Origin: Aphanomyces cochlioides
Taxonomy: Eukaryota; Oomycota; Saprolegniomycetes; Saprolegniales; Verrucalvaceae
Assembly (NCBI GenBank): GCA_019828595.1
Contig: JAHQRK010000022.1
Location: 1,426,001-1,490,000 of the forward strand
Reading direction: 5' to 3'
DNA length: 64,000 bases
Below, piece after piece: positions 31,753-61,401 of the stretch (positions are counted from its first letter, which is position 1; the number at the start of each line of letters is the position of its first letter). The position numbers were made by a program, and so were the translations under genes. The notes beneath the pieces were generated by a model. It worked only from the letters and a program-made list of their open reading frames with translations, did no database searches and was not told the DNA's origin.

Positions 31753-31825
31753 GGTCTTATAGTGTAGCGGTTATCACGTCTCCTTGACGTGGAGAAGGTC
31801 CCCGGTTCAAGTCCGGGTAAGACCA
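31753..31825 (+). tRNA. tRNA-Val(GAC), intact copy 17
   Basis: Unchanged; first of five consecutive intact units, the longest uninterrupted run in the window. Confidence 0.95.
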
Positions 31826-32938: not shown

Positions 32939-33011
32939 GGTCTTATAGTGTAGCGGTTATCACGTCTCCTTGACGTGGAGAAGGTCCCCGGTTCAAGTCC
33001 GGGTAAGACCA
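32939..33011 (+). tRNA. tRNA-Val(GAC), intact copy 18
   Basis: Unchanged tRNA and terminator. Confidence 0.95.
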
Positions 33012-34124: not shown

Positions 34125-34197
34125 GGTCTTATAGTGTAGCGGTTATCACGTCTCCTTGACGTGGAGAAGGTCCCCGGTTCAAGTCCGGGTAAGACCA
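34125..34197 (+). tRNA. tRNA-Val(GAC), intact copy 19
   Basis: Unchanged tRNA and terminator. Confidence 0.95.
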
Positions 34198-35310
34198 TCC
34201 TTTTTCGACCCAAATCAACTTTTTTTGCTTCCCGAATGATATCTCGGCCAATATTTTCTTCCCAACACACGCTATCTCTTATGGCACCTCACATGCTCTT
34301 CTTTCAACCGCATCACAACCCGTCATCCCCGCACGCCGACGAAATGCGTGTAAAATGACAAAAGTACTAGACTTTGCGTCTCCATTTCTCATCCATGAGG
34401 CAAGTGTACCAATCATAAAACACGCATAAATAGAACAGTTCAAACTGGACTTTCACCGAGACCCTGACACGACAAATATTCCATCTCAGTTTCACTTCAG
34501 AAAGGACGATTTTAAATCCTCATTGACTTGGAGGGGACGCTACTTGAGAAACCCTTCCAGTCATTCCTTACTCTCTTCAAAGCAACAAACTTTTCCAAAA
34601 TGGACCCAACTTAAACTTAACCACACTAAACAAATCTCAACAACAGGTAGCTCCAAAGAAACAGCGATTCGTTCAAATGAATACACAATCGTATCAACCG
34701 AGCGCTGGATAGACACATCCACTCGACCTCAGAGTATGTCTCTCAAAACAATGACAGACAAGATGGAAGAGAGCATCCAATTGGACCGTTGGAACTTATT
34801 ATAGATTCCAAGATACATATATGTAGATGATTACAGGAGGTCCATCGTTCCCTGTGAGTTTGTGTGTTTAGACTCGTTTTTTGTGGGAGGGGGCGATGAT
34901 CCGCTTTTGGTTTGAAATGAAAGTATTTGAATAGGTCTACGAGAGGAGACAAACTTTTTCTCCCAAGCCCTTCGAGTATTGCATGTTGGCGAGGACTGAC
35001 CACTCAGTTTGTCTAGGCTTTGGTTGCGAAAATAGAGTGCGCTGAAGGATTTTTGTGTCCAGAGTCGTCGTGAATGGTATGGAAACAGATCACAGACGTG
35101 GAGAGAGGAGATGATGTTTGTGACTTGTGAGGTCGAGTCTATCGTGGGCCGTGTGGTGACAGGATGTTAGTATAGGCGATGTTGTTGTGTGTGCTGACGT
35201 GATGGGTTTGGCGTTGAATGTGTGACAAGGATAGCGTTCCAATGGTTGTGAGAGGGTGCTGGTATGTGATTGATGTGAATGATGAGCAAGGTAGGCATAG
35301 TAGACATGGA

Positions 35311-35383
35311 GGTCTTATAGTGTAGCGGTTATCACGTCTCCTTGACGTGGAGAAGGTCCCCGGTTCAAGTCCGGGTAAGACCA
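35311..35383 (+). tRNA. tRNA-Val(GAC), intact copy 20
   Basis: Unchanged tRNA and terminator. Confidence 0.95.
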
Positions 35384-36496
35384 TCCTTTTTCGACCCAAA
35401 TCAACTTTTTTTGCTTCCCGAATGATATCTCGGCCAATATTTTCTTCCCAACACACGCTATCTCTTATGGCACCTCACATGCTCTTCTTTCAACCGCATC
35501 ACAACCCGTCATCCCCGCACGCCGACGAAATGCGTGTAAAATGACAAAAGTACTAGACTTTGCGTCTCCATTTCTCATCCATGAGGCAAGTGTACCAATC
35601 ATAAAACACGCATAAATAGAACAGTTCAAACTGGACTTTCACCGAGACCCTGACACGACAAATATTCCATCTCAGTTTCACTTCAGAAAGGACGATTTTA
35701 AATCCTCATTGACTTGGAGGGGACGCTACTTGAGAAACCCTTCCAGTCATTCCTTACTCTCTTCAAAGCAACAAACTTTTCCAAAATGGACCCAACTTAA
35801 ACTTAACCACACTAAACAAATCTCAACAACAGGTAGCTCCAAAGAAACAGCGATTCGTTCAAATGAATACACAATCGTATCAACCGAGCGCTGGATAGAC
35901 ACATCCACTCGACCTCAGAGTATGTCTCTCAAAACAATGACAGACAAGATGGAAGAGAGCATCCAATTGGACCGTTGGAACTTATTATAGATTCCAAGAT
36001 ACATATATGTAGATGATTACAGGAGGTCCATCGTTCCCTGTGAGTTTGTGTGTTTAGACTCGTTTTTTGTGGGAGGGGGCGATGATCCGCTTTTGGTTTG
36101 AAATGAAAGTATTTGAATAGGTCTACGAGAGGAGACAAACTTTTTCTCCCAAGCCCTTCGAGTATTGCATGTTGGCGAGGACTGACCACTCAGTTTGTCT
36201 AGGCTTTGGTTGCGAAAATAGAGTGCGCTGAAGGATTTTTGTGTCCAGAGTCGTCGTGAATGGTATGGAAACAGATCACAGACGTGGAGAGAGGAGATGA
36301 TGTTTGTGACTTGTGAGGTCGAGTCTATCGTGGGCCGTGTGGTGACAGGATGTTAGTATAGGCGATGTTGTTGTGTGTGCTGACGTGATGGGTTTGGCGT
36401 TGAATGTGTGACAAGGATAGCGTTCCAATGGTTGTGAGAGGGTGCTGGTATGTGATTGATGTGAATGATGAGCAAGGTAGGCATAGTAGACATGGA

Positions 36497-36569
36497 GGTC
36501 TTATAGTGTAGCGGTTATCACGTCTCCTTGACGTGGAGAAGGTCCCCGGTTCAAGTCCGGGTAAGACCA
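36497..36569 (+). tRNA. tRNA-Val(GAC), intact copy 21
   Basis: Unchanged; last of the five-unit intact run. Confidence 0.95.
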
Positions 36570-37682
36570 TCCTTTTTCGACCCAAATCAACTTTTTTTGC
36601 TTCCCGAATGATATCTCGGCCAATATTTTCTTCCCAACACACGCTATCTCTTATGGCACCTCACATGCTCTTCTTTCAACCGCATCACAACCCGTCATCC
36701 CCGCACGCCGACGAAATGCGTGTAAAATGACAAAAGTACTAGACTTTGCGTCTCCATTTCTCATCCATGAGGCAAGTGTACCAATCATAAAACACGCATA
36801 AATAGAACAGTTCAAACTGGACTTTCACCGAGACCCTGACACGACAAATATTCCATCTCAGTTTCACTTCAGAAAGGACGATTTTAAATCCTCATTGACT
36901 TGGAGGGGACGCTACTTGAGAAACCCTTCCAGTCATTCCTTACTCTCTTCAAAGCAACAAACTTTTCCAAAATGGACCCAACTTAAACTTAACCACACTA
37001 AACAAATCTCAACAACAGGTAGCTCCAAAGAAACAGCGATTCGTTCAAATGAATACACAATCGTATCAACCGAGCGCTGGATAGACACATCCACTCGACC
37101 TCAGAGTATGTCTCTCAAAACAATGACAGACAAGATGGAAGAGAGCATCCAATTGGACCGTTGGAACTTATTATAGATTCCAAGATACATATATGTAGAT
37201 GATTACAGGAGGTCCATCGTTCCCTGTGAGTTTGTGTGTTTAGACTCGTTTTTTGTGGGAGGGGGCGATGATCCGCTTTTGGTTTGAAATGAAAGTATTT
37301 GAATAGGTCTACGAGAGGAGACAAACTTTTTCTCCCAAGCCCTTCGAGTATTGCATGTTGGCGAGGACTGACCACTCAGTTTGTCTAGGCTTTGGTTGCG
37401 AAAATAGAGTGCGCTGAAGGATTTTTGTGTCCAGAGTCGTCGTGAATGGTATGGAAACAGATCACAGACGTGGAGAGAGGAGATGATGTTTGTGACTTGT
37501 GAGGTCGAGTCTATCGTGGGCCGTGTGGTGACAGGATGTTAGTATAGGCGATGTTGTTGTGTGTGCTGACGTGATGGGTTTGGCGTTGAATGTGTGACAA
37601 GGATAGTGTTCCAATGGTTGTGAGAGGGTGCTGGTATGTGATTGATGTGAATGATGAGCAAGGTAGGCATAGTAGACATGGA

Positions 37683-38128
37683 GGTCTTATAGTGTAGCGG
37701 TTATCACGTCTCCTTGACGTGGAGAATGAGGGGGGAAATTGGCTCAGTGGTAGAGCACACGCTTCGTAAGCGAGAGGTCACCGGTTCGATCCCGGGCTAG
37801 GACGAGGGATTTGCAACCCCTCCACCCCCCCTGTCCGAAAGCACGGTATTTAATGGGATGTATGTAATCGGGAAACTTAAGTGCGCCTCGAACTTACAAG
37901 AGAAGGATTGTCCGGAAGCGGTTACCGGAATGAAAGTGTCAGTTTAATGTGGCCGTTCTGTAAAAACGTGTCGAATCGCTGTACTACCGAAAAGGTAGAA
38001 CTATCAAGACAAAGCCGTTAGACCTGGTCCAGCAGAGTTAAAGTAGTTCATATCCACTATAACCTAGGTAATATACTCAATAAACCTTGACGTGGAGAAG
38101 GTCCCCGGTTCAAGTCCGGGTAAGACCA
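37683..38128 (+). pseudogene. tRNA-Val(GAC) split by SINE 9
   Basis: The 5' part is 37683-37726 and the 3' part is 38085-38128. Marker base 37607 is T. Confidence 0.95.
37727..38084 (+). mobile_element. SINE 9 in tRNA-Val
   Basis: This 358-bp copy carries a private T-to-A change at 38034 in the 3' region and is otherwise majority type. Confidence 0.92.
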
Positions 38129-39241
38129 TCCTTTTTCGACCCAAATCAACTTTTTTTGCTTCCCGAATGATATCTCGGCCAATATTTTCTTCCCAACACA
38201 CGCTATCTCTTATGGCACCTCACATGCTCTTCTTTCAACCGCATCACAACCCGTCATCCCCGCACGCCGACGAAATGCGTGTAAAATGACAAAAGTACTA
38301 GACTTTGCGTCTCCATTTCTCATCCATGAGGCAAGTGTACCAATCATAAAACACGCATAAATAGAACAGTTCAAACTGGACTTTCACCGAGACCCTGACA
38401 CGACAAATATTCCATCTCAGTTTCACTTCAGAAAGGACGATTTTAAATCCTCATTGACTTGGAGGGGACGCTACTTGAGAAACCCTTCCAGTCATTCCTT
38501 ACTCTCTTCAAAGCAACAAACTTTTCCAAAATGGACCCAACTTAAACTTAACCACACTAAACAAATCTCAACAACAGGTAGCTCCAAAGAAACAGCGATT
38601 CGTTCAAATGAATACACAATCGTATCAACCGAGCGCTGGATAGACACATCCACTCGACCTCAGAGTATGTCTCTCAAAACAATGACAGACAAGATGGAAG
38701 AGAGCATCCAATTGGACCGTTGGAACTTATTATAGATTCCAAGATACATATATGTAGATGATTACAGGAGGTCCATCGTTCCCTGTGAGTTTGTGTGTTT
38801 AGACTCGTTTTTTGTGGGAGGGGGCGATGATCCGCTTTTGGTTTGAAATGAAAGTATTTGAATAGGTCTACGAGAGGAGACAAACTTTTTCTCCCAAGCC
38901 CTTCGAGTATTGCATGTTGGCGAGGACTGACCACTCAGTTTGTCTAGGCTTTGGTTGCGAAAATAGAGTGCGCTGAAGGATTTTTGTGTCCAGAGTCGTC
39001 GTGAATGGTATGGAAACAGATCACAGACGTGGAGAGAGGAGATGATGTTTGTGACTTGTGAGGTCGAGTCTATCGTGGGCCGTGTGGTGACAGGATGTTA
39101 GTATAGGCGATGTTGTTGTGTGTGCTGACGTGATGGGTTTGGCGTTGAATGTGTGACAAGGATAGCGTTCCAATGGTTGTGAGAGGGTGCTGGTATGTGA
39201 TTGATGTGAATGATGAGCAAGGTAGGCATAGTAGACATGGA

Positions 39242-39314
39242 GGTCTTATAGTGTAGCGGTTATCACGTCTCCTTGACGTGGAGAAGGTCCCCGGTTCAAG
39301 TCCGGGTAAGACCA
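39242..39314 (+). tRNA. tRNA-Val(GAC), intact copy 22
   Basis: Unchanged tRNA and terminator. Confidence 0.95.
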
Positions 39315-40427
39315 TCCTTTTTCGACCCAAATCAACTTTTTTTGCTTCCCGAATGATATCTCGGCCAATATTTTCTTCCCAACACACGCTATCTCTTATG
39401 GCACCTCACATGCTCTTCTTTCAACCGCATCACAACCCGTCATCCCCGCACGCCGACGAAATGCGTGTAAAATGACAAAAGTACTAGACTTTGCGTCTCC
39501 ATTTCTCATCCATGAGGCAAGTGTACCAATCATAAAACACGCATAAATAGAACAGTTCAAACTGGACTTTCACCGAGACCCTGACACGACAAATATTCCA
39601 TCTCAGTTTCACTTCAGAAAGGACGATTTTAAATCCTCATTGACTTGGAGGGGACGCTACTTGAGAAACCCTTCCAGTCATTCCTTACTCTCTTCAAAGC
39701 AACAAACTTTTCCAAAATGGACCCAACTTAAACTTAACCACACTAAACAAATCTCAACAACAGGTAGCTCCAAAGAAACAGCGATTCGTTCAAATGAATA
39801 CACAATCGTATCAACCGAGCGCTGGATAGACACATCCACTCGACCTCAGAGTATGTCTCTCAAAACAATGACAGACAAGATGGAAGAGAGCATCCAATTG
39901 GACCGTTGGAACTTATTATAGATTCCAAGATACATATATGTAGATGATTACAGGAGGTCCATCGTTCCCTGTGAGTTTGTGTGTTTAGACTCGTTTTTTG
40001 TGGGAGGGGGCGATGATCCGCTTTTGGTTTGAAATGAAAGTATTTGAATAGGTCTACGAGAGGAGACAAACTTTTTCTCCCAAGCCCTTCGAGTATTGCA
40101 TGTTGGCGAGGACTGACCACTCAGTTTGTCTAGGCTTTGGTTGCGAAAATAGAGTGCGCTGAAGGATTTTTGTGTCCAGAGTCGTCGTGAATGGTATGGA
40201 AACAGATCACAGACGTGGAGAGAGGAGATGATGTTTGTGACTTGTGAGGTCGAGTCTATCGTGGGCCGTGTGGTGACAGGATGTTAGTATAGGCGATGTT
40301 GTTGTGTGTGCTGACGTGATGGGTTTGGCGTTGAATGTGTGACAAGGATAGCGTTCCAATGGTTGTGAGAGGGTGCTGGTATGTGATTGATGTGAATGAT
40401 GAGCAAGGTAGGCATAGTAGACATGGA

Positions 40428-40500
40428 GGTCTTATAGTGTAGCGGTTATCACGTCTCCTTGACGTGGAGAAGGTCCCCGGTTCAAGTCCGGGTAAGACCA
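40428..40500 (+). tRNA. tRNA-Val(GAC), intact copy 23
   Basis: Unchanged; the unit that follows carries the long LINE. Confidence 0.95.
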
Positions 40501-41642
40501 TCCTTTTTCGACCCAAATCAACTTTTTTTGCTTCCCGAATGATATCTCGGCCAATATTTTCTTCCCAACACACGCTATCTCTTATGGCACCTCACATGCT
40601 CTTCTTTCAACCGCATCACAACCCGTCATCCCCGCACGCCGACGAAATGCGTGTAAAATGACAAAAGTACTAGACTTTGCGTCTCCATTTCTCATCCATG
40701 AGGCAAGTGTACCAATCATAAAACACGCATAAATAGAACAGTTCAAACTGGACTTTCACCGAGACCCTGACACGACAAATATTCCATCTCAGTTTCACTT
40801 CAGAAAGGACGATTTTAAATCCTCATTGACTTGGAGGGGACGCTACTTGAGAAACCCTTCCAGTCATTCCTTACTCTCTTCAAAGCAACAAACTTTTCCA
40901 AAATGGACCCAACTTAAACTTAACCACACTAAACAAATCTCAACAACAGGTAGCTCCAAAGAAACAGCGATTCGTTCAAATGAATACACAATCGTATCAA
41001 CCGAGCGCTGGATAGACACATCCACTCGACCTCAGAGTATGTCTCTCAAAACAATGACAGACAAGATGGAAGAGAGCATCCAATTGGACCGTTGGAACTT
41101 ATTATAGATTCCAAGATACATATATGTAGATGATTACAGGAGGTCCATCGTTCCCTGTGAGTTTGTGTGTTTAGACTCGTTTTTTGTGGGAGGGGGCGAT
41201 GATCCGCTTTTGGTTTGAAATGAAAGTATTTGAATAGGTCTACGAGAGGAGACAAACTTTTTCTCCCAAGCCCTTCGAGTATTGCATGTTGGCGAGGACT
41301 GACCACTCAGTTTGTCTAGGCTTTGGTTGCGAAAATAGAGTGCGCTGAAGGATTTTTGTGTCCAGAGTCGTCGTGAATGGTATGGAAACAGATCACAGAC
41401 GTGGAGAGAGGAGATGATGTTTGTGACTTGTGAGGTCGAGTCTATCGTGGGCCGTGTGGTGACAGGATGTTAGTATAGGCGATGTTGTTGTGTGTGCTGA
41501 CGTGATGGGTTTGGCGTTGAATGTGTGACAAGGATAGCGTTCCAATGGTTGTGAGAGGGTGCTGGTATGTGATTGATGTGAATGATGAGCAAGGTAGGCA
41601 TAGTAGACATGGAGGTCTTATAGTGTAGCGGTTATCACGTCT

Positions 41643-41657
41643 CCTTGACGTGGAGAA
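41643..41657 (+). repeat. Left target-site duplication of LINE 1
   Basis: CCTTGACGTGGAGAA, tRNA nt 30-44, is repeated at 48566-48580. The stagger implies a first (bottom-strand) nick between tRNA nt 29 and 30 and a second (top-strand) cut after nt 44. Confidence 0.92.
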
Positions 41658-41658
41658 T

Positions 41659-41943
41659 CTGTGCCTGAAAGACAAAGTCCACCGTTGGCCCAATTGCAAT
41701 TTAATCACGGACGCCTCCTTGATTAAATTAATTTCCAGTCCTGCTGCTGGAAACCTGGTGCAACATCATAAAATTGAAGAAGAGTTGAGCCATATTGTGA
41801 AAGATCTGGCACTCCAAACAATTGACCCTACGAAGTGTTTTGACTCGGATACTGATGCCTTGTTAACTTTACTTCCGGACGAAAAGGCTCCTGAACTCGA
41901 CTACAAAGAACTTGGCGATGGTGACAATGCAGACTCCAATTGA
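41659..41943 (+). CDS. LINE ORF1, C-terminal fragment (5'-truncated)
   Basis: This open frame of 94 codons runs in from the target-site duplication and ends at TGA 41941-41943. The apparent GTG start at 41650 lies in tRNA sequence, so the true start is missing. The fragment ends in an acidic tail rich in D and E (about the last 40 residues). No zinc knuckle or RRM is visible in what remains. By position before ORF2 it is taken as the end of ORF1, which in related LINEs encodes an RNA-binding chaperone. The function here is an inference from position only. Confidence 0.6.
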   Translation: MCLKDKVHRWPNCNLITDASLIKLISSPAAGNLVQHHKIEEELSHIVKDLALQTIDPTKCFDSDTDALLTLLPDEKAPELDYKELGDGDNADSN

Positions 41944-42043
41944 CTCGCCAACACACAAAATCAATTAAAACCACAATCACCACACCCCGACCCAAACCAA
42001 CACAACGACTTGAAGTCAAAAAATCAAAACCCAAATATTAATC

Positions 42044-45000
42044 ATGACCGTGACCACAATTAACGCGCTACCACAAGCCATTATCGACTGGGATATTAGC
42101 TTGTTTTCTCTCAACACAAATGGTCTCTCCAACTCTTTCCACCACCTTCTCAAGAACTTTCTCCTCAAAAACTCTATCTCACTTATCCAAGAAACTCGAC
42201 TGCCTTACCCCAGCGACCATGGCAAAATCAATTTCTACTGGAAAAAACATACCAACCAACAAGGCACTTTCTTCTACGAGGAGCCAATTTATTCCATCAG
42301 CAATACCTCTCATCCTACTGGAGGCCTTGCTACATTTATTCATCCTGACTGCCCTCTGGACAATTGCACCAATTTAAACCACTCTTGGGACAAACCTCTC
42401 CTCCGTGGTCGTTATTTACTTATATCGGCCACTCTGGACAATATACCGGTTTTTATTCACAACATCTATGCTCCGTACGACTATCACGACCGTGTGGATT
42501 TTTTTAATGATCTGCCTCGCGATTTTCCACCCGAAGCTTTTCATATTGTTGGTGGCGACTTTAACGTTATTTTCTCCCCAACATTAGATTCATGCCGTCC
42601 TTCGACTCATGCGACCCATGGCTCATATGAACTCAACCTATGGCTACAAGATTTACACCTCGTTGACATTTTCCGTCAACAAAATCCACTGAAACGTGCT
42701 TTCACAAGTCCAAAATTTGTCAATCGGCTTGACTATATTTTCATCTCGTCTGCTATGGCATCCCTACGTCATCTGAAATTTTGTCACCTGGAACTAATTC
42801 CTCATGCTGACCACACTCCCTGCAAATTATTGACCAAACGTCCAGCAGTATCAATGGGACCTGGTCCATGGAAAACACCACAATGGGTTCTCAACAATGA
42901 CAAGGCCAAATTAATTATCTCTCGTCAACTTGAAACCTTCCTTACCAAGACCCAATTAAACTCAAATGTTGGTCTACATTTCGACACCATGATCACCAAC
43001 ATGCGAAATCAATTAAAATACCTACACGACGAGTTGGTCGAAAATCAACAAAGGCCTCTCAAGAAATTATCTATGGATTTGGCTTTATTGATTCGGGATT
43101 ACCAAAACGCCCCATGTGCGTCCTTGATGGCACGTATCAAAACAATTCAAGCTGCCATACATGAATATCATGACAGGAAAAAAGTCCTACGGGAAGATAC
43201 TGCTATGCAAACTCATCTCGAGAAAGCGGAAAGGTGTACCAAATTTCACCTGAAGCCACCTCGCACAATCCCTTTACAAAAATCTCCCTTCAAGGCACTC
43301 AAAATGTCCAATGGAAATATTGCTTCTGATCAACAATCAATTTCCTCGACACTCCACGAGTTTTATTCTGACCTGTATGGCGACCATGAGGCAGTTGACA
43401 AGGAAAGAATGGCCAAGTATTTAAAAACTCTGATATCTCGCCGACTCAATATCGACGACAAGAGATTTATTGGGGCTCCTCTCACGGCAAACGAATTTTA
43501 TTTTGCCATTAAACACTCCAAACGGAATTCAACTCCTGGGCCAAATTCACTGCCCTACGAAATTTTGAAAATGTTTCCCCATGAATGGTCCCTGGCTTTG
43601 GAAATGCTATACTATTACCAAATCAACTCTCACTCCAACTTGGCACCCTCCCAATTGACAAGTTTAATTGTACTGCTGTACAAAAAGGACGACAAACTAC
43701 TCCCAAAAAATTACCGTCCCATCAGCTTGGTCAATATCGACGTGAAAATCCTCACAATGGTCCTTGCAGAACGAATGCAGAGAATCATTCAGTCGATAGT
43801 CCACCCGGATCAAACAGGTTTTATTCGTGGTCGATCAATCCAAACCAATTTACTGCGCTTGGAAGACCTGAATCACTTTATGAAGTTTTATTCCTCCGAG
43901 TCTATTGTGGCCCTCTTGGACTTTGAAAAAGCCTTTGATAGGGTCAACCATTCCTATTTATTGGCAACCCTGAAGGAATTTAATTTTCCACCGTCCTTTC
44001 TCAACATGGTCAAAGTGCTTTATTCAAATCGTCGTGGACGAATTATTGTCAATGGACATTTATCCAACCCATTTAAGATCCAACGTGGTGTTTTACAAGG
44101 CGACCCATTATCACCTCTTTTATTTGTCTTGGCGCTAGAACCTATGTGTTTAGCCATACGCAAGAGAAAAGATTTGGGCATACGAATTGGTCATCACACT
44201 CACACCGGGAGCTATTATGCAGACGACTCCCAATTGTACTCCAAAAATACATCGACGTTGCAACTCCAACTCGACATCGTCAAAAAATTCTGTGATATCT
44301 CTGGTTTCAAGTTAAATCTCTCCAAGACAGAATTATTAACCCATGCCAATTTACCTCCAGACCTGGCACCTTTGGCTATTACTGATGACAAACCTGCTAA
44401 ATCGTTGGGCCTTTTAATTTCTCCCAACATCACAGCCACAACACGTTTAAATTCGCTATTGGAGAAATTGGTCTCAAGAACACAACTATGGTCTTATCGA
44501 GCACGAACCCTACCCGGAAAAGTGACAATCCTAAGGTCAATTTGTTTTCCTGTGCTCTGGTATCAACTCCAATTTATTCCGATCGACAAAGAATATGCCA
44601 AACTATTCGACAAGGTCGCCAAGCAATTTATTCACGGCGATACAATTGATCCATATTCGACTCAACGTTATTTGCATCAATTCAACTCGGACATTATTTT
44701 CCTTCCAAAAGCACAAGGTGGTCTCGGATTTAAATCGTCTACCCACTGGTGGTCAAAACTACACCGGGTCATGACCTTTAAATGCTTCAAGCTACTCCTA
44801 GCACCACCTCACAACTCGTATGGTCAAACGAAATTGCCAGCATGGCTATCCATTGGAGAATATTTACTCTCCAGAGCCTTCAGTCCATGGGGAAATTTTT
44901 ATGATCTCCTTTTCATGAGTCCACACTCTAGTATGTACAAAGCCATATCCCACCAAGATAAGGTTCCACCTCTCTGGTCAGCATTTACTCGACTATGGTT

Positions 45001-46129
45001 ATCCTTATCTCCAACCCCACTTAAATTTCCCACAGTTCAAGTCGATGGAAATTTTCCACTTTGGCACAATCAATTCTTACCCTTGGAGAAAACTGTCTTT
45101 GAACACTGCTATCCAAAGACTTATGATTATGCTGTATCACTGGCAAAATTAAATTTTACCCATGTTCGCCACCTACTCGATGAAAATGGCAATCTTATGG
45201 ATCGGAAAATCCTGTTAGATTGGATTAAATCTCAATGCTCAAGACGCCATTTAGCCACTCCCGATCATAAATGGTGGTATGCTCTACACGGAAGACTTAA
45301 GTCTATCCTTCCATCTCCACCCGAGGACACAGAAATTAATTTTCGTCAGCCTACACCTTATCGGCAAACGGCTACCGAAATTACTTGGGCTGGAAATTTT
45401 AAAGATGGCTTTTTACCCTTTATTGATGCCACCTTGGATGATTTAACTCATGAATTTAAATCCAAATCAGCTCAGGAGGTTTTACCCACAGCGCATTTAT
45501 TGGTACCCTCGGATTTTTATGCCCACAAGGAAAATATTAAAGTGGTCGCATTCTACAGGCAGCCCAAATTTATTCTGCCAACGTATAGTGCTTTCATATA
45601 TCGACTGCTTATACGAGCCTTACCTCTCCGATACAAATTCAAGTACTCGGACGATATCCCGAACACTTGTATTTTCTGTCATGAAGTGGAGACGTATAAA
45701 CATTTCACCTTGGACTGTCCATATACTCGAGCATGTTGGAGTCCATTTAAATCCATGGCCAGATCCCTTAACTTTACTTGGCCAACTACCATGGAAAAAA
45801 TATTCTTCTCTCCTATAGCACTCCAAGACAAAGACCTCCAAGCTGGATTTAATTTGCTGTGGCCAATTTTTTTATCTTGTATTTGGTATACAATATGGAA
45901 AACTCGGTGCGACCGGATTTACCGTCCAGATTTACCTAACAAAACACCTATGACGATATCCAGCTTAGCAGGACACATTATAAAGCGGCATCTGTACCAA
46001 GTCAATCGAGCCTCCTTGGACGACTCCACGAAGGCTTCCTTGACATCGGTGCTTCATAGTTTGCACCAGAATGAGTGGTTCTCTGCCCAAATCTTACCAC
46101 AATCTCAAAACGAGACCTTGGAACCTTAA
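42044..46129 (+). CDS. LINE ORF2: AP endonuclease-reverse transcriptase, intact, 1,361 aa
   Basis: This is the enzyme for target-primed reverse transcription: it nicks the target and copies element RNA from the exposed 3' end. The N-terminal AP endonuclease (about 14-262) keeps N24 (LNTNG), E50 (QET), Y142 (IYAP), D172/N174 (GGDFN), D230 (RLDYIF) and D256/H257 (ADHTP). The reverse transcriptase (about 415-810) shows LLYKKDD (544-550), NYRPISL (556-562), the catalytic D626 in LLDFEKAFD, GVLQGDPLSP (682-691) and YADD (725-728). A C-terminal C-X2-C-X7-H-X4-C knuckle (C1209, C1212, H1220, C1225) matches the zf-RVT type. No RNase H was recognised. The ATG at 42044 starts ahead of the endonuclease, 100 bp after ORF1 and in another frame. 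All catalytic motifs are present and there is no internal stop, so the protein may be active. The length is slightly above the usual ~1,275-1,310 aa for L1/Tx1. Confidence 0.96.
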   Translation: MTVTTINALPQAIIDWDISLFSLNTNGLSNSFHHLLKNFLLKNSISLIQETRLPYPSDHGKINFYWKKHTNQQGTFFYEEPIYSISNTSHPTGGLATFIHPDCPLDNCTNLNHSWDKPLLRGRYLLISATLDNIPVFIHNIYAPYDYHDRVDFFNDLPRDFPPEAFHIVGGDFNVIFSPTLDSCRPSTHATHGSYELNLWLQDLHLVDIFRQQNPLKRAFTSPKFVNRLDYIFISSAMASLRHLKFCHLELIPHADHTPCKLLTKRPAVSMGPGPWKTPQWVLNNDKAKLIISRQLETFLTKTQLNSNVGLHFDTMITNMRNQLKYLHDELVENQQRPLKKLSMDLALLIRDYQNAPCASLMARIKTIQAAIHEYHDRKKVLREDTAMQTHLEKAERCTKFHLKPPRTIPLQKSPFKALKMSNGNIASDQQSISSTLHEFYSDLYGDHEAVDKERMAKYLKTLISRRLNIDDKRFIGAPLTANEFYFAIKHSKRNSTPGPNSLPYEILKMFPHEWSLALEMLYYYQINSHSNLAPSQLTSLIVLLYKKDDKLLPKNYRPISLVNIDVKILTMVLAERMQRIIQSIVHPDQTGFIRGRSIQTNLLRLEDLNHFMKFYSSESIVALLDFEKAFDRVNHSYLLATLKEFNFPPSFLNMVKVLYSNRRGRIIVNGHLSNPFKIQRGVLQGDPLSPLLFVLALEPMCLAIRKRKDLGIRIGHHTHTGSYYADDSQLYSKNTSTLQLQLDIVKKFCDISGFKLNLSKTELLTHANLPPDLAPLAITDDKPAKSLGLLISPNITATTRLNSLLEKLVSRTQLWSYRARTLPGKVTILRSICFPVLWYQLQFIPIDKEYAKLFDKVAKQFIHGDTIDPYSTQRYLHQFNSDIIFLPKAQGGLGFKSSTHWWSKLHRVMTFKCFKLLLAPPHNSYGQTKLPAWLSIGEYLLSRAFSPWGNFYDLLFMSPHSSMYKAISHQDKVPPLWSAFTRLWLSLSPTPLKFPTVQVDGNFPLWHNQFLPLEKTVFEHCYPKTYDYAVSLAKLNFTHVRHLLDENGNLMDRKILLDWIKSQCSRRHLATPDHKWWYALHGRLKSILPSPPEDTEINFRQPTPYRQTATEITWAGNFKDGFLPFIDATLDDLTHEFKSKSAQEVLPTAHLLVPSDFYAHKENIKVVAFYRQPKFILPTYSAFIYRLLIRALPLRYKFKYSDDIPNTCIFCHEVETYKHFTLDCPYTRACWSPFKSMARSLNFTWPTTMEKIFFSPIALQDKDLQAGFNLLWPIFLSCIWYTIWKTRCDRIYRPDLPNKTPMTISSLAGHIIKRHLYQVNRASLDDSTKASLTSVLHSLHQNEWFSAQILPQSQNETLEP

Positions 46130-47247
46130 AAGGCATGTTATATTGCAACCTTTGAAGAAATTCACCTAAGTCACCCAAACCAATGGGAAAACTCAAAGTG
46201 GATTTTCTCGCGACCCACTTGGCCTTTTCATGCGTTTGATGGCTCGTTAGCCCCAGCTAACAGAGCTCTATGGACACACCAAGTAACTTTATCTCATGCC
46301 GAGTCGTTCACAAAATCGACTTGACTTTATCCGTTCACCCAAAATGGCAAAACTATCGACAACTCTGGCATTGCTCTGACGATCATTTCAGACATTCTAA
46401 TGGTCTTCAGGGTTGCTAGACATCCCAAGCAGACAAACGCAAGCGTTAGATTGCAAAAAAGTGCAGTGGTTCTCTCACAACAACACTTTGAAAATTGTTA
46501 CGACGTCTCCCCCTGGGGGCGAAATCTCAAAATCGAGTGCACACTTTTTGTTCGGAAAAATTGCGCCACGGTGCCTAAAAGATTCTCCCATGTCTCCTCC
46601 TCAAGATGTGCCAGTTTGCGAGTGCTCAAACCTCGCCAAACTCGCGAAACAAAATTCGAAAGGAAATTCGACCCGGTGACACCCATTTTGAACCGGTTTC
46701 AACCCGTCACCAAAAGTGAAATTTCTCTCGACCTACTGCGTGGATTTCTACGTTTAGTGGCTTGTTATCTCAGTTGAATCGAGCTCTATGCCGAGACCAA
46801 CTAGCACATATTGCAGATCTATGGTTCAAAACCACGAACCCATTTTGGACTGTCACCCAAACCGGTGAAACACCAGGACAACTCGAACGCTTCCCCTACG
46901 GTCACCGAGTGACATCTAGGGGTCTAGTGGGTGGCTCCACCACTTATTACGACTAGCCAAAGCGTTAGAACGCCCTGAAACATCCTGGTTTGCTCGCAAT
47001 CCTCAATCCAAAATGTCAACCGCCCCTATCCACCGGCTACAAAACCTTAAGTCGGCTACAGGTCGCAAATCATTTCCAATCGACCGGCTATGACTCTTTT
47101 CCATCCTATCATGGCTAGACGAGTGTTTTAAGCCATCAAGAGCGATGATTGAAGCCCTGGAACCTACTTGCCGTCGCCCCGACAACTTTTGGTGAAATGG
47201 CTAAAACTCATCGGAATGGCTCCTGAACGCAAATCAACTCCGATCGC

Positions 47248-47487
47248 CCAACTTAGAGTTGGAGAGGCTCGAGAATGTCCTCGCGATGGATTTGAGCTAT
47301 CAAGCACCATGATAGCAGCACAGGAACCCAACTTCCGATTCCAAACCATTTTGAGCCGATAAGGCTCCAAAACGACCATCGTAGCTCATTTCAGCTACAC
47401 GACTCTATATGCACCGATTAATATGGTGCATCCACCGCTAGCCTCCATTGATGGAGGACACCAAGTATGGCTATCTATCTCATAGCC
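47248..47487 (+). other. Tandem hairpin cluster in the LINE 3' UTR
   Basis: Seven perfect inverted repeats follow one another in 240 bp. Their stems are CCAACT/AGTTGG (47248-47262), GCTATCA/TGATAGC (47296-47316), GAGCC/GGCTC (47353-47367), GTAGCT/AGCTAC (47381-47398), ATGCACC/GGTGCAT (47409-47431), CCTCCA/TGGAGG (47442-47457) and GGCTAT/ATAGCC (47469-47487). Loops are 3-9 nt. The same order recurs in the truncated LINE copy. The role is unknown; binding of ORF2 protein or RNA stability are possible. Confidence 0.7.
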
Positions 47488-47730
47488 GTTCGGAAGTTAT
47501 GACTCCTTCAAATTTGGCCGCCGAGACGCCCGATTGGAAAAAACACTGGTTTTGGCTAGCGCTCTCCCGCTACACACTACCTATGGCGATTCTAATGGTG
47601 CGCTATCCTTCGTACGTATCGTCGCTACGATTCTGCCAAGTGGCTCCATGCACCGCGGCGCCGTTCGAAATCCAGCTCCGACGATGCTCGCGCTCGAGAC
47701 CTATCCGCGCATGGCGCATGTCAAAATGGC

Positions 47731-47771
47731 ACCTCCCAAATATTTTACCCTTTTTATTATTTTTGGGAGGT
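47731..47771 (+). other. 10-bp stem-loop in the LINE 3' UTR
   Basis: ACCTCCCAAA (47731-47740) pairs with TTTGGGAGGT (47762-47771) around a T-rich 21-nt loop. In the second LINE copy the outermost A is T, leaving 9 bp, and the loop has one extra T. Confidence 0.6.
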
Positions 47772-48523
47772 TTACCCCAAAAGCCCAACCCACAAGGGAT
47801 TTTCCCTCTATCTCGCCACCATCAACTCCGACGAAGACGCTCCTGAAATCAACTTTGCTTGTCATGGAACGACCGACCTCGTTGATTTTTTTGGCTGGTC
47901 AAATCGTCCAAGAACATTTTACTTTGGATGGTCTTTTCTCTCAAACCCAGCTTTTCCCATGGATCCAGCGATTTAATTCGGCCTCCTGAGGTCGAATTAA
48001 ATTGGCCACGACCTTTTTGGATTTTTTGGGCTCCTACCTCTTGCCAATTTATTTTCCTTGGGCCTGATTTTACTCTGTTTCGACCCTTTTGTCAATTTTT
48101 GGCCTTCCTCTCCTGTCGATTTATTTATTCATGGATCGACCCCAACTCAAGCTTTTATTTACTTGGCCTTTTTCACTGCGTACCTCCACTTGGAATTTTT
48201 ATCAAGACTTTTGTATACAAATTTTCAAGTCCTCCACAGTCAACCCGAAATTGCCTCGTATCTCGCCACCACCAACTCGGATCAAGATGGTCATGAAAAG
48301 AAAGTTGCTTGTATGGCTCTTCTCTATACTGTTGAATTTTTTCACAGCCTGAATCGCCATGCAACATTTTCTTTCTGCCATGGTTCCTCCAAATTACCCC
48401 ACACCCAAGTCTATTTCGGTTAAGCAACACTGGACGATTTTCCACAAGAACCTTCCAAGGTCACATTTCGCAACACATATTTATTATGCGACCTATGAAG
48501 CCAAAATCGAAAGTCTAGTTTGC

Positions 48524-48537
48524 GGCCCTTTTGGGCC
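48524..48537 (+). other. Terminal hairpin of the LINE
   Basis: GGCCC-TTTT-GGGCC forms a 5-bp GC stem with a TTTT loop, 28 nt before the 3' end. It is repeated at 58572-58585 in LINE 2. Hairpins near the 3' end are recognition signals for the reverse transcriptase in stringent-type LINEs; a similar role here is inference. Confidence 0.6.
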
Positions 48538-48549
48538 ATATTAATTCTT

Positions 48550-48565
48550 TAATATACTCAGTTAA
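48550..48565 (+). repeat. LINE 3' tail shared with the SINE
   Basis: TAATATACTCA followed by GTTAA directly meets the target duplication. The SINE has the same 11 bases at the same distance from its junction (5438-5448). Confidence 0.75.
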
Positions 48566-48580
48566 CCTTGACGTGGAGAA
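48566..48580 (+). repeat. Right target-site duplication of LINE 1
   Basis: The second copy of CCTTGACGTGGAGAA. It continues into tRNA nt 45-73 and the T5 terminator. Confidence 0.92.
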
Positions 48581-49722
48581 GGTCCCCGGTTCAAGTCCGG
48601 GTAAGACCATCCTTTTTCGACCCAAATCAACTTTTTTTGCTTCCCGAATGATATCTCGGCCAATATTTTCTTCCCAACACACGCTATCTCTTATGGCACC
48701 TCACATGCTCTTCTTTCAACCGCATCACAACCCGTCATCCCCGCACGCCGACGAAATGCGTGTAAAATGACAAAAGTACTAGACTTTGCGTCTCCATTTC
48801 TCATCCATGAGGCAAGTGTACCAATCATAAAACACGCATAAATAGAACAGTTCAAACTGGACTTTCACCGAGACCCTGACACGACAAATATTCCATCTCA
48901 GTTTCACTTCAGAAAGGACGATTTTAAATCCTCATTGACTTGGAGGGGACGCTACTTGAGAAACCCTTCCAGTCATTCCTTACTCTCTTCAAAGCAACAA
49001 ACTTTTCCAAAATGGACCCAACTTAAACTTAACCACACTAAACAAATCTCAACAACAGGTAGCTCCAAAGAAACAGCGATTCGTTCAAATGAATACACAA
49101 TCGTATCAACCGAGCGCTGGATAGACACATCCACTCGACCTCAGAGTATGTCTCTCAAAACAATGACAGACAAGATGGAAGAGAGCATCCAATTGGACCG
49201 TTGGAACTTATTATAGATTCCAAGATACATATATGTAGATGATTACAGGAGGTCCATCGTTCCCTGTGAGTTTGTGTGTTTAGACTCGTTTTTTGTGGGA
49301 GGGGGCGATGATCCGCTTTTGGTTTGAAATGAAAGTATTTGAATAGGTCTACGAGAGGAGACAAACTTTTTCTCCCAAGCCCTTCGAGTATTGCATGTTG
49401 GCGAGGACTGACCACTCAGTTTGTCTAGGCTTTGGTTGCGAAAATAGAGTGCGCTGAAGGATTTTTGTGTCCAGAGTCGTCGTGAATGGTATGGAAACAG
49501 ATCACAGACGTGGAGAGAGGAGATGATGTTTGTGACTTGTGAGGTCGAGTCTATCGTGGGCCGTGTGGTGACAGGATGTTAGTATAGGCGATGTTGTTGT
49601 GTGTGCTGACGTGATGGGTTTGGCGTTGAATGTGTGACAAGGATAGTGTTCCAATGGTTGTGAGAGGGTGCTGGTATGTGATTGATGTGAATGATGAGCA
49701 AGGTAGGCATAGTAGACATGGA

Positions 49723-50168
49723 GGTCTTATAGTGTAGCGGTTATCACGTCTCCTTGACGTGGAGAATGAGGGGGGAAATTGGCTCAGTGGTAGAGCACAC
49801 GCTTCGTAAGCGAGAGGTCACCGGTTCGATCCCGGGCTAGGACGAGGGATTTGCAACCCCTCCACCCCCCCTGTCCGAAAGCACGGTATTTAATGGGATG
49901 TATGTAATCGGGAAACTTAAGTGCGCCTCGAACTTACAAGAGAAGGATTGTCCGGAAGCGGTTACCGGAATGAAAGTGTCAGTTTAATGTGGCCGTTCTG
50001 TAAAAACGTGTCGAATCGCTGTACTACCGAAAAGGTAGAACTATCAAGACAAAGCCGTTAGACCTGGTCCAGCTGAGTTAAAGTAGTTCATATCCACTAT
50101 AACCTAGGTAATATACTCAATAAACCTTGACGTGGAGAAGGTCCCCGGTTCAAGTCCGGGTAAGACCA
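49723..50168 (+). pseudogene. tRNA-Val(GAC) split by SINE 10
   Basis: The 5' part is 49723-49766 and the 3' part is 50125-50168. Marker base 49647 is T. It follows the LINE 1 unit. Confidence 0.95.
49767..50124 (+). mobile_element. SINE 10 in tRNA-Val
   Basis: A 358-bp majority-type copy with the common 5' junction. Confidence 0.92.
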
Positions 50169-51281
50169 TCCTTTTTCGACCCAAATCAACTTTTTTTGCT
50201 TCCCGAATGATATCTCGGCCAATATTTTCTTCCCAACACACGCTATCTCTTATGGCACCTCACATGCTCTTCTTTCAACCGCATCACAACCCGTCATCCC
50301 CGCACGCCGACGAAATGCGTGTAAAATGACAAAAGTACTAGACTTTGCGTCTCCATTTCTCATCCATGAGGCAAGTGTACCAATCATAAAACACGCATAA
50401 ATAGAACAGTTCAAACTGGACTTTCACCGAGACCCTGACACGACAAATATTCCATCTCAGTTTCACTTCAGAAAGGACGATTTTAAATCCTCATTGACTT
50501 GGAGGGGACGCTACTTGAGAAACCCTTCCAGTCATTCCTTACTCTCTTCAAAGCAACAAACTTTTCCAAAATGGACCCAACTTAAACTTAACCACACTAA
50601 ACAAATCTCAACAACAGGTAGCTCCAAAGAAACAGCGATTCGTTCAAATGAATACACAATCGTATCAACCGAGCGCTGGATAGACACATCCACTCGACCT
50701 CAGAGTATGTCTCTCAAAACAATGACAGACAAGATGGAAGAGAGCATCCAATTGGACCGTTGGAACTTATTATAGATTCCAAGATACATATATGTAGATG
50801 ATTACAGGAGGTCCATCGTTCCCTGTGAGTTTGTGTGTTTAGACTCGTTTTTTGTGGGAGGGGGCGATGATCCGCTTTTGGTTTGAAATGAAAGTATTTG
50901 AATAGGTCTACGAGAGGAGACAAACTTTTTCTCCCAAGCCCTTCGAGTATTGCATGTTGGCGAGGACTGACCACTCAGTTTGTCTAGGCTTTGGTTGCGA
51001 AAATAGAGTGCGCTGAAGGATTTTTGTGTCCAGAGTCGTCGTGAATGGTATGGAAACAGATCACAGACGTGGAGAGAGGAGATGATGTTTGTGACTTGTG
51101 AGGTCGAGTCTATCGTGGGCCGTGTGGTGACAGGATGTTAGTATAGGCGATGTTGTTGTGTGTGCTGACGTGATGGGTTTGGCGTTGAATGTGTGACAAG
51201 GATAGCGTTCCAATGGTTGTGAGAGGGTGCTGGTATGTGATTGATGTGAATGATGAGCAAGGTAGGCATAGTAGACATGGA

Positions 51282-51354
51282 GGTCTTATAGTGTAGCGGT
51301 TATCACGTCTCCTTGACGTGGAGAAGGTCCCCGGTTCAAGTCCGGGTAAGACCA
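51282..51354 (+). tRNA. tRNA-Val(GAC), intact copy 24
   Basis: Unchanged tRNA between SINE units 10 and 11; the marker base is C. Confidence 0.95.
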
Positions 51355-52467
51355 TCCTTTTTCGACCCAAATCAACTTTTTTTGCTTCCCGAATGATATC
51401 TCGGCCAATATTTTCTTCCCAACACACGCTATCTCTTATGGCACCTCACATGCTCTTCTTTCAACCGCATCACAACCCGTCATCCCCGCACGCCGACGAA
51501 ATGCGTGTAAAATGACAAAAGTACTAGACTTTGCGTCTCCATTTCTCATCCATGAGGCAAGTGTACCAATCATAAAACACGCATAAATAGAACAGTTCAA
51601 ACTGGACTTTCACCGAGACCCTGACACGACAAATATTCCATCTCAGTTTCACTTCAGAAAGGACGATTTTAAATCCTCATTGACTTGGAGGGGACGCTAC
51701 TTGAGAAACCCTTCCAGTCATTCCTTACTCTCTTCAAAGCAACAAACTTTTCCAAAATGGACCCAACTTAAACTTAACCACACTAAACAAATCTCAACAA
51801 CAGGTAGCTCCAAAGAAACAGCGATTCGTTCAAATGAATACACAATCGTATCAACCGAGCGCTGGATAGACACATCCACTCGACCTCAGAGTATGTCTCT
51901 CAAAACAATGACAGACAAGATGGAAGAGAGCATCCAATTGGACCGTTGGAACTTATTATAGATTCCAAGATACATATATGTAGATGATTACAGGAGGTCC
52001 ATCGTTCCCTGTGAGTTTGTGTGTTTAGACTCGTTTTTTGTGGGAGGGGGCGATGATCCGCTTTTGGTTTGAAATGAAAGTATTTGAATAGGTCTACGAG
52101 AGGAGACAAACTTTTTCTCCCAAGCCCTTCGAGTATTGCATGTTGGCGAGGACTGACCACTCAGTTTGTCTAGGCTTTGGTTGCGAAAATAGAGTGCGCT
52201 GAAGGATTTTTGTGTCCAGAGTCGTCGTGAATGGTATGGAAACAGATCACAGACGTGGAGAGAGGAGATGATGTTTGTGACTTGTGAGGTCGAGTCTATC
52301 GTGGGCCGTGTGGTGACAGGATGTTAGTATAGGCGATGTTGTTGTGTGTGCTGACGTGATGGGTTTGGCGTTGAATGTGTGACAAGGATAGTGTTCCAAT
52401 GGTTGTGAGAGGGTGCTGGTATGTGATTGATGTGAATGATGAGCAAGGTAGGCATAGTAGACATGGA

Positions 52468-52912
52468 GGTCTTATAGTGTAGCGGTTATCACGTCTCCTT
52501 GACGTGGAGAATGAGGGGGGAAATTGGCTCAGTGGTAGAGCACACGCTTCGTAAGCGAGAGGTCACCGGTTCGATCCCGGGCTAGGACGAGGGATTTGCA
52601 ACCCCCCTCCCCCCCTGTCCGAAAGCACGGTATTTAATGGGATGTATGTAATCGGGAAACTTAAGTGCGCCTCGAACTTACAAGAGAAGGATTGTCCGGA
52701 AGCGGTTACCGGAATGAAAGTGTCAGTTTAATGTGGCCGTTCTGTAAAAACGTGTCGAATCGCTGTACTACCGAAAAGGTAGAACTATCAAGACAAAGCC
52801 GTTAGACCTGGTCCAGCTGAGTTAAAGTAGTTCATATCCACTATAACCTAGGTAATATACTCAATAAACCTTGACGTGGAGAAGGTCCCCGGTTCAAGTC
52901 CGGGTAAGACCA
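52468..52912 (+). pseudogene. tRNA-Val(GAC) split by SINE 11
   Basis: The 5' part is 52468-52511 and the 3' part is 52869-52912. Marker base 52392 is T. Confidence 0.95.
52512..52868 (+). mobile_element. SINE 11 in tRNA-Val
   Basis: This 357-bp copy has a rearranged C-tract (its internal A is missing) near 52602-52616 and the common 5' junction. Confidence 0.92.
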
Positions 52913-54025
52913 TCCTTTTTCGACCCAAATCAACTTTTTTTGCTTCCCGAATGATATCTCGGCCAATATTTTCTTCCCAACACACGCTATCTCTTATGGC
53001 ACCTCACATGCTCTTCTTTCAACCGCATCACAACCCGTCATCCCCGCACGCCGACGAAATGCGTGTAAAATGACAAAAGTACTAGACTTTGCGTCTCCAT
53101 TTCTCATCCATGAGGCAAGTGTACCAATCATAAAACACGCATAAATAGAACAGTTCAAACTGGACTTTCACCGAGACCCTGACACGACAAATATTCCATC
53201 TCAGTTTCACTTCAGAAAGGACGATTTTAAATCCTCATTGACTTGGAGGGGACGCTACTTGAGAAACCCTTCCAGTCATTCCTTACTCTCTTCAAAGCAA
53301 CAAACTTTTCCAAAATGGACCCAACTTAAACTTAACCACACTAAACAAATCTCAACAACAGGTAGCTCCAAAGAAACAGCGATTCGTTCAAATGAATACA
53401 CAATCGTATCAACCGAGCGCTGGATAGACACATCCACTCGACCTCAGAGTATGTCTCTCAAAACAATGACAGACAAGATGGAAGAGAGCATCCAATTGGA
53501 CCGTTGGAACTTATTATAGATTCCAAGATACATATATGTAGATGATTACAGGAGGTCCATCGTTCCCTGTGAGTTTGTGTGTTTAGACTCGTTTTTTGTG
53601 GGAGGGGGCGATGATCCGCTTTTGGTTTGAAATGAAAGTATTTGAATAGGTCTACGAGAGGAGACAAACTTTTTCTCCCAAGCCCTTCGAGTATTGCATG
53701 TTGGCGAGGACTGACCACTCAGTTTGTCTAGGCTTTGGTTGCGAAAATAGAGTGCGCTGAAGGATTTTTGTGTCCAGAGTCGTCGTGAATGGTATGGAAA
53801 CAGATCACAGACGTGGAGAGAGGAGATGATGTTTGTGACTTGTGAGGTCGAGTCTATCGTGGGCCGTGTGGTGACAGGATGTTAGTATAGGCGATGTTGT
53901 TGTGTGTGCTGACGTGATGGGTTTGGCGTTGAATGTGTGACAAGGATAGCGTTCCAATGGTTGTGAGAGGGTGCTGGTATGTGATTGATGTGAATGATGA
54001 GCAAGGTAGGCATAGTAGACATGGA

Positions 54026-54098
54026 GGTCTTATAGTGTAGCGGTTATCACGTCTCCTTGACGTGGAGAAGGTCCCCGGTTCAAGTCCGGGTAAGACCA
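54026..54098 (+). tRNA. tRNA-Val(GAC), intact copy 25
   Basis: Unchanged tRNA and terminator. Confidence 0.95.
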
Positions 54099-55211
54099 TC
54101 CTTTTTCGACCCAAATCAACTTTTTTTGCTTCCCGAATGATATCTCGGCCAATATTTTCTTCCCAACACACGCTATCTCTTATGGCACCTCACATGCTCT
54201 TCTTTCAACCGCATCACAACCCGTCATCCCCGCACGCCGACGAAATGCGTGTAAAATGACAAAAGTACTAGACTTTGCGTCTCCATTTCTCATCCATGAG
54301 GCAAGTGTACCAATCATAAAACACGCATAAATAGAACAGTTCAAACTGGACTTTCACCGAGACCCTGACACGACAAATATTCCATCTCAGTTTCACTTCA
54401 GAAAGGACGATTTTAAATCCTCATTGACTTGGAGGGGACGCTACTTGAGAAACCCTTCCAGTCATTCCTTACTCTCTTCAAAGCAACAAACTTTTCCAAA
54501 ATGGACCCAACTTAAACTTAACCACACTAAACAAATCTCAACAACAGGTAGCTCCAAAGAAACAGCGATTCGTTCAAATGAATACACAATCGTATCAACC
54601 GAGCGCTGGATAGACACATCCACTCGACCTCAGAGTATGTCTCTCAAAACAATGACAGACAAGATGGAAGAGAGCATCCAATTGGACCGTTGGAACTTAT
54701 TATAGATTCCAAGATACATATATGTAGATGATTACAGGAGGTCCATCGTTCCCTGTGAGTTTGTGTGTTTAGACTCGTTTTTTGTGGGAGGGGGCGATGA
54801 TCCGCTTTTGGTTTGAAATGAAAGTATTTGAATAGGTCTACGAGAGGAGACAAACTTTTTCTCCCAAGCCCTTCGAGTATTGCATGTTGGCGAGGACTGA
54901 CCACTCAGTTTGTCTAGGCTTTGGTTGCGAAAATAGAGTGCGCTGAAGGATTTTTGTGTCCAGAGTCGTCGTGAATGGTATGGAAACAGATCACAGACGT
55001 GGAGAGAGGAGATGATGTTTGTGACTTGTGAGGTCGAGTCTATCGTGGGCCGTGTGGTGACAGGATGTTAGTATAGGCGATGTTGTTGTGTGTGCTGACG
55101 TGATGGGTTTGGCGTTGAATGTGTGACAAGGATAGCGTTCCAATGGTTGTGAGAGGGTGCTGGTATGTGATTGATGTGAATGATGAGCAAGGTAGGCATA
55201 GTAGACATGGA

Positions 55212-55284
55212 GGTCTTATAGTGTAGCGGTTATCACGTCTCCTTGACGTGGAGAAGGTCCCCGGTTCAAGTCCGGGTAAGACCA
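55212..55284 (+). tRNA. tRNA-Val(GAC), intact copy 26
   Basis: Unchanged tRNA; the spacer after it lacks one C near 55696. Confidence 0.95.
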
Positions 55285-56396
55285 TCCTTTTTCGACCCAA
55301 ATCAACTTTTTTTGCTTCCCGAATGATATCTCGGCCAATATTTTCTTCCCAACACACGCTATCTCTTATGGCACCTCACATGCTCTTCTTTCAACCGCAT
55401 CACAACCCGTCATCCCCGCACGCCGACGAAATGCGTGTAAAATGACAAAAGTACTAGACTTTGCGTCTCCATTTCTCATCCATGAGGCAAGTGTACCAAT
55501 CATAAAACACGCATAAATAGAACAGTTCAAACTGGACTTTCACCGAGACCCTGACACGACAAATATTCCATCTCAGTTTCACTTCAGAAAGGACGATTTT
55601 AAATCCTCATTGACTTGGAGGGGACGCTACTTGAGAAACCCTTCCAGTCATTCCTTACTCTCTTCAAAGCAACAAACTTTTCCAAAATGGACCCAATTAA
55701 ACTTAACCACACTAAACAAATCTCAACAACAGGTAGCTCCAAAGAAACAGCGATTCGTTCAAATGAATACACAATCGTATCAACCGAGCGCTGGATAGAC
55801 ACATCCACTCGACCTCAGAGTATGTCTCTCAAAACAATGACAGACAAGATGGAAGAGAGCATCCAATTGGACCGTTGGAACTTATTATAGATTCCAAGAT
55901 ACATATATGTAGATGATTACAGGAGGTCCATCGTTCCCTGTGAGTTTGTGTGTTTAGACTCGTTTTTTGTGGGAGGGGGCGATGATCCGCTTTTGGTTTG
56001 AAATGAAAGTATTTGAATAGGTCTACGAGAGGAGACAAACTTTTTCTCCCAAGCCCTTCGAGTATTGCATGTTGGCGAGGACTGACCACTCAGTTTGTCT
56101 AGGCTTTGGTTGCGAAAATAGAGTGCGCTGAAGGATTTTTGTGTCCAGAGTCGTCGTGAATGGTATGGAAACAGATCACAGACGTGGAGAGAGGAGATGA
56201 TGTTTGTGACTTGTGAGGTCGAGTCTATCGTGGGCCGTGTGGTGACAGGATGTTAGTATAGGCGATGTTGTTGTGTGTGCTGACGTGATGGGTTTGGCGT
56301 TGAATGTGTGACAAGGATAGCGTTCCAATGGTTGTGAGAGGGTGCTGGTATGTGATTGATGTGAATGATGAGCAAGGTAGGCATAGTAGACATGGA

Positions 56397-61328: not shown

Positions 61329-61401
61329 GGTCTTATAGTGTAGCGGTTATCACGTCTCCTTGACGTGGAGAAGGTCCCCGGTTCAAGTCCGGGTAAGACC
61401 A
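61329..61401 (+). tRNA. tRNA-Val(GAC), intact copy 27
   Basis: Unchanged tRNA and terminator. Confidence 0.95.

Follow-up and report, generated by a model that had tools for sequence, protein, structure and literature searches.

In Aphanomyces cochlioides, a multicopy tRNA gene is very probably the target of a site-specific, L1-like (APE) LINE that enters its anticodon arm, and a tRNA-headed SINE probably uses the LINE enzyme to reach the same spot, a reading drawn from 14 of 14 inserts in one array. That array spans the 64,000 nucleotides analysed here (the window), and, as read within it, the feature is best described as a paired, site-specific LINE and SINE lodged in the anticodon arm of the arrayed gene.

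The tRNA gene array and its insertion site

In the window, 43 tRNA genes follow one another in tandem on the + strand (310..63773; 29 intact and 14 interrupted, by ARAGORN and half-gene matches), in units of ~1186 bp. Both ends of the window lie inside the array. ARAGORN called all 29 intact genes in the window tRNA-Val with anticodon GAC, beginning with the first intact gene of the array at 310-382, and in the stretch scanned with Rfam (39000-53000) the three intact genes each scored 66 bits against the tRNA family (cut-off 29). In eukaryotes, the anticodon that usually reads these Val codons is AAC; given this, a large array of GAC genes would be odd, the Val identity being that predicted by ARAGORN.

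Array units are strongly homogenised. With inserts removed, the 42 complete units compared were 1185-1187 bp long and varied at 7 of 1188 alignment columns: six are indels private to one copy each, and the seventh is a C/T site shared between units. A search inside one array unit found no repeat, and Tandem Repeats Finder, whose longest period (500) is exceeded by the unit of ~1186 bp, reported none. The 73-nt tRNA gene itself was invariant in the window: its left half (nt 1-44) and its right half (nt 30-73) were each found 43 times, every one exact. The right halves were followed by TCCTTTTT in 42 of 43 cases and by TCCTTTT in the remaining one, either of which is likely to be a Pol III stop.

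Fourteen of the genes in the window carry an insert, 12 of them a SINE of 356-358 bp and two a LINE (6908 bp and 2173 bp). All 14 are broken after tRNA nt 44, with nt 30-44 (CCTTGACGTGGAGAA) repeated on the far side, and every insert has the orientation of the tRNA gene. No insertion at any other position was found in the 42 complete units. CCTTGACGTGGAGAA occurs 57 times, always exact and always on the + strand, as 43 sites and 14 second copies; nothing further lay within 3 mismatches in the window, where shuffles lead one to expect 2.06. The two next-best target-like places in one unit match at 11 of 15 positions, and both are without an insert.

The region around LINE copy 1 illustrates the arrangement. 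An intact tRNA-Val-like (GAC) gene, one of the 29, adjoins it at 40428..40500 (+ strand; ARAGORN; Rfam tRNA, 66 bits) and contains an empty target site at 40457..40471 (tRNA nt 30-44, anticodon arm; exact match to the target, + strand). The LINE-interrupted gene was recovered as two half-gene matches on the + strand: a left piece, nt 1-44, at 41614..41657, with the left duplication copy at 41643-41657, and a right piece, nt 30-73, at 48566..48609, with the right duplication copy at 48566-48580 and TCCTTTTT following. The same two pieces make up the other interrupted genes. The first base of LINE 2 is a G, as is the base next after the target, and its duplication may therefore be 16 bp instead of 15 bp.

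An earlier note on this DNA, made from sequence alone, had counted 14 interruptions (2 LINE, 12 SINE) at the same place and in the same orientation with the same 15 bp (nt 30-44) duplicated, and the 43 + 43 exact halves and 57 target copies bear out that count. The 15 bp are indeed carried by 14 of 14 inserts, although the possible 16-bp duplication of LINE 2 qualifies the statement that all share one duplication. The same note had box A, the anticodon loop and box B split by each insertion, which proved incorrect: boxes A and B, whose positions we take from the general consensus, are pushed apart but each uncut, and the anticodon loop is present twice.

The LINE and the SINE that shares its tail

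LINE copy 1 (41658..48565, + strand; 6908 bp) is probably 5'-truncated. A frame runs open through its 5' junction, so the segment 41658..41943 (+ strand) is probably the end of ORF1; no Pfam match was obtained in this segment at E <= 0.001. ORF2 (42044..46129, + strand) is open over 1361 aa and, judged by its frame, profiles, alignment and PDB matches, encodes an APE endonuclease, a reverse transcriptase and a CCHC motif. By these predicted parts (N-terminal APE endonuclease, LINE-type RT and C-terminal CCHC), the element is an APE-type, L1-like LINE, and it has LINE-type hallmarks in the form of a 15- (or 16-) bp target-site duplication and two different 5' ends.

ORF2 matched Pfam RVT_1 (7.3e-39) and, below the cut-off of 27.5, zf-RVT (2.4e-05, 25.4 bits), while NCBIfam profiles gave matches below cut-offs only. 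Residues 119-849 matched L1 ORF2 (4.4e-66), and a comparison of the endonuclease part with PDB placed L1 endonucleases nearest among solved structures (best 5.2e-09). The Pfam APE profile was not reached by this ORF2 at E <= 0.001; it matched seven of the nine proteins that we aligned (this ORF2 and eight relatives). The N, E, Y, GDxN, RxD and DH positions of the endonuclease, presumably its catalytic residues, are invariant in all nine. ORF2 also contains the motifs YYADD and CX2CX7HX4C, and the residues of the latter (C1209, C1212, H1220 and C1225) are likewise invariant in the nine.

The closest protein to ORF2 was P0001, of equal length and 93% identical, and the nearest named relatives were from Aphanomyces euteiches (40-45% identical). 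In an RT tree of 55 rows, from which 9 of 63 homologues had been left out by a length filter and which contained no named Tx1 elements, the window ORF2 fell into a nine-row group with A. euteiches elements (support 100/100). Judged from this one protein, the host is probably an oomycete akin to Aphanomyces. Viral contigs yielded no match to peptides of P0001, to a 35-nt pattern joining tRNA and target, or to a pattern for the SINE head, and 28 stretches of viral contigs matched ORF2 alignment A1, none of which was confirmed. Among genome contigs, 55 stretches matched alignment A1, of which 17 were confirmed as relatives (23-30% identity, all in bacteria-titled records). ARAGORN found a tRNA gene in none of the 17, which are therefore uninformative on the target. 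Fifteen LINE-type RT contigs belong together under the record title 'uncultured Trichormus' (ERR2144891_bin.1) and are probably eukaryotic sequence in a bacterial metagenome-assembled genome.

Downstream of ORF2, the region 46130..48565 (3' UTR; + strand), delimited by the ORF map and tail comparison, ends in a tail common to the SINE. At ~2.4 kb without a long ORF, it is unusually long for a LINE 3' UTR. Repeats within it are weak; a diverged 54-nt direct repeat (80%) lies at 47809 and 48259. LINE copy 2 (56441..58613, + strand; 2173 bp) is truncated inside this region, as judged by comparison of the copies.

The head of the SINE is tRNA-like: both copies in the stretch 39000-53000, out of 12 in the window, scored 31.5 bits against Rfam tRNA (cut-off 29). 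Its tail resembles that of the LINE, with 14 of the last 16 nt agreeing in register, an agreement reached by 0 of 200,000 shuffles, and with an unbroken block of 11, seen in 5 of 200,000 shuffles. Because these 14 nt are common to both elements, the SINE was probably moved by this LINE, as far as the sequences indicate. It might instead have been moved by another LINE with the same target, the likeness of the tails being convergence. That likeness is confined to the tail (BLAST found no significant SINE-LINE match outside it), but both the shuffles and the identity of site, strand and duplication between SINE and LINE argue against a second LINE, which we regard as extremely unlikely. The LINE end folds into two hairpins, and the SINE end is without a clear equivalent fold; this and the restriction of the match to the tail weigh against the proposed pairing.

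Insertion events, recombination and a possible mechanism

Across the 12 SINE copies, 12 of 359 alignment columns vary, the first four of them from shifts at the 5' end. For the copies at 21192 and 59815, raw 5' ends were used, and the alignment shift in the 5' G run inflates pairwise counts. The flanks offer a single informative SNP, a C/T site 76 bp upstream of the tRNA, which we used as a marker. Of the 12 SINE-bearing genes, 10 have marker T upstream, as does 1 of the 29 intact genes and neither of the two LINE-bearing ones (Fisher 3.6e-7 for SINE-bearing genes versus the rest, a guide only, the copies being related).

By copy and marker comparison, the SINE copies with marker T, all on the + strand, are 5097..5453, 11399..11756, 14145..14502, 18447..18804, 21192..21548 (5' G run shorter by one G), 25122..25479, 30238..30595, 37727..38084, 49767..50124 (tRNA-like head 49780-49836) and 52512..52868 (tRNA-like head 52525-52581). 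Since they share marker T in the left flank, these ten are best read as mostly one insertion spread by recombination. Two further + strand copies carry marker C. That at 16890..17245 has the common 5' junction and may be a recombinant, while that at 59815..60171 differs in its 5' junction, has an A-to-G change of its own and is probably a separate insertion, though it could be an altered recombinant instead. The tRNA gene starting at 12914 is the only intact gene with marker T and lies between two SINE-bearing T units; its unit may be a recombinant or an ancestral T unit.

These observations bear on whether the common site reflects targeting or descent. If non-specific elements had made one or two chance insertions that recombination then spread, the shared site would follow from common descent, and both the concentration of marker T in SINE-bearing genes and the strong homogenisation of the array agree with this. 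Yet a LINE and a SINE with an unrelated body occupy the same site and strand, the 5' ends of the two LINE copies are not the same, their sequences show 10 substitutions over 2172 bp where the 42 flanking units have a single SNP in common, and SINE 59815 has its own 5' junction. We consider chance followed by spread very unlikely. A single insertion behind everything was rejected, given the different LINE and SINE sequences, the two LINE 5' ends and the second SINE 5' junction; 14 independent insertions were rejected on marker T.

With two different 5' ends for the LINE and a second 5' junction for the SINE, at least three events, and probably four, have to be counted at one position and in one orientation. 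The chance of four events falling on one position and strand in an 1186-bp unit is 7.5e-11, and by the same formula about 1.8e-7 for three. The earlier note's central claim, that an APE-type LINE and a SINE share one position in the anticodon arm, is upheld by the different LINE 5' ends, the substitutions between the LINE copies and the two SINE 5' junctions, but its treatment of the 14 interruptions as 14 separate insertions is not, with 10 of 12 SINE copies sharing the marker. It had named descent of every copy from a single insertion as what would count against it; ten SINE copies fit such descent, and the LINE copies and SINE 59815 do not.

Target-primed reverse transcription is established for LINEs and agrees with the anatomy seen here, and by analogy with known LINEs we infer the following steps for site-specific insertion. 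ORF2 would nick the non-coding (bottom) strand between tRNA nt 29 and 30, and the freed 3' end would act as primer for reverse transcription of LINE or SINE RNA, beginning at the tail that both share. The other strand would then be cut at nt 44/45 (perhaps 45/46 for LINE 2), yielding the 15- (or 16-) bp duplication. The SINE would borrow the LINE enzyme through its near-identical 3' tail and so reach the same site. Recombination would subsequently spread copies along the array as the source of most SINE copies, with two thirds of the genes left intact. The arrangement suggests a self-copying element that uses a gene the cell can spare.

The SINE consensus contains no run of four T, so a Pol III transcript begun in its tRNA-like head would be expected to read through to the tRNA gene's own T run, which would serve as the stop. 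We tentatively raise the possibility that SINE RNA extends in this way through the right tRNA half, and that the resulting tail, an exact complement of the nicked primer strand, guides re-insertion. A target-derived guide tail has been proposed for read-through R2 RNA; the idea here is the same, applied to an APE-type LINE–SINE pair at a tRNA anticodon arm.

The array allows retrotransposition to be separated from recombination copy by copy. Should the pattern hold genome-wide, it would add an APE-type LINE, followed to the same spot by a SINE, to the elements that enter tRNA genes themselves, and the 15 bp of anticodon arm would provide a small, defined target for studying how L1-like endonucleases gain sequence specificity. 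It would also provide a system for asking whether target sequence gained by read-through serves SINE RNAs as a guide, and would raise the question of how the host retains enough intact tRNA genes with a third of the array broken.

Comparison with known target-specific elements and tRNA arrays

Dewa, Mutsu and Keno are APE elements of the Tx1 clade. Like the LINE described here, they target multicopy small-RNA gene repeats: according to the accessible part of PMC3706591, Dewa lies in a tRNA-Leu spacer, Mutsu in 5S rRNA genes and Keno in U2 snRNA genes. None of the three is described there as lying inside a tRNA gene, whereas this LINE does.

LINEs specific for one kind of tRNA gene are known, namely NeSL-1_TV, LIN15_SM and LIN25_SM, for tRNA-Pro, tRNA-Arg and tRNA-Glu genes (PMC4640811, in part). 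These resemble our LINE in that specificity, but they group with NeSL-related elements that have a restriction-like endonuclease, as do target-specific LINEs outside the Tx1 and R1 clades (same source), while this LINE has a predicted N-terminal APE. The accessible text of PMC4640811 mentions no SINE partner for them; here a SINE shares the site.

Insertion in or near the anticodon arm, including that of tRNA-Val, is described for the DNA transposons Dada-tV, -tD, -tA and -tL (PMC8869645, in part). Dada elements, however, carry a DDE transposase, make 6-7-bp duplications and lie opposite in orientation to the tRNA, in contrast to the 15-bp duplications and shared orientation of the RT-bearing system here. 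The suggestion that the target specificity is new thus stands for an APE-type LINE with a SINE partner, and has to be narrowed in so far as tRNA-specific LINEs (PMC4640811) and anticodon-arm Dada (PMC8869645) were already in print. The literature searched, which consisted mostly of non-subscription papers, some available in part, yielded no APE-type LINE that shares a site within a tRNA gene with a SINE partner.

The dictyostelid elements TRE5, TRE3, NLTR-A and NLTR-B are L1-clade LINEs tied to tRNA genes, like this one, and the ORF2 of TRE5-A and TRE3-A combines APE, RT and zinc finger, as in this ORF2 (PMC5911963, in part). The accessible sections of PMC5911963 and PMC5006619 place the insertions of TRE and NLTR elements outside the tRNA gene: TRE5 40-54, NLTR-A 2-6 and NLTR-B 39-64 bp upstream, and TRE3 40-150 bp downstream (distances from PMC5911963). 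They thus keep a loose distance outside the gene, whereas the LINE and SINE here occupy one position inside it, and TRE-like loose targeting was rejected on this ground. Attraction of the LINE by Pol III factors, as of TRE5-A by TFIIIB, instead of by the DNA sequence of the anticodon arm would fit a target that is a Pol III gene, and TRE5-A does contact TFIIIB (PMC5911963, in part). However, the dictyostelid insertions outside the gene cover ranges of several to about 100 bp, in contrast to the single position of every insert here, and we judge this explanation highly unlikely.

Targeting of the anticodon-arm sequence itself, our preferred reading, would take place in an array of a kind described from another oomycete. 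Phytophthora infestans has long single-tRNA tandem arrays of near-identical units (for example, 271 tRNA-Cys copies with a 513-nt unit), which resemble the present array, although the Val array there is AAC and paired with Ser, and that here is GAC (PMC9584435, in part). Elements inside tRNA genes go unmentioned in the accessible text on those arrays (PMC9584435), whereas here 14 of 43 genes are interrupted.
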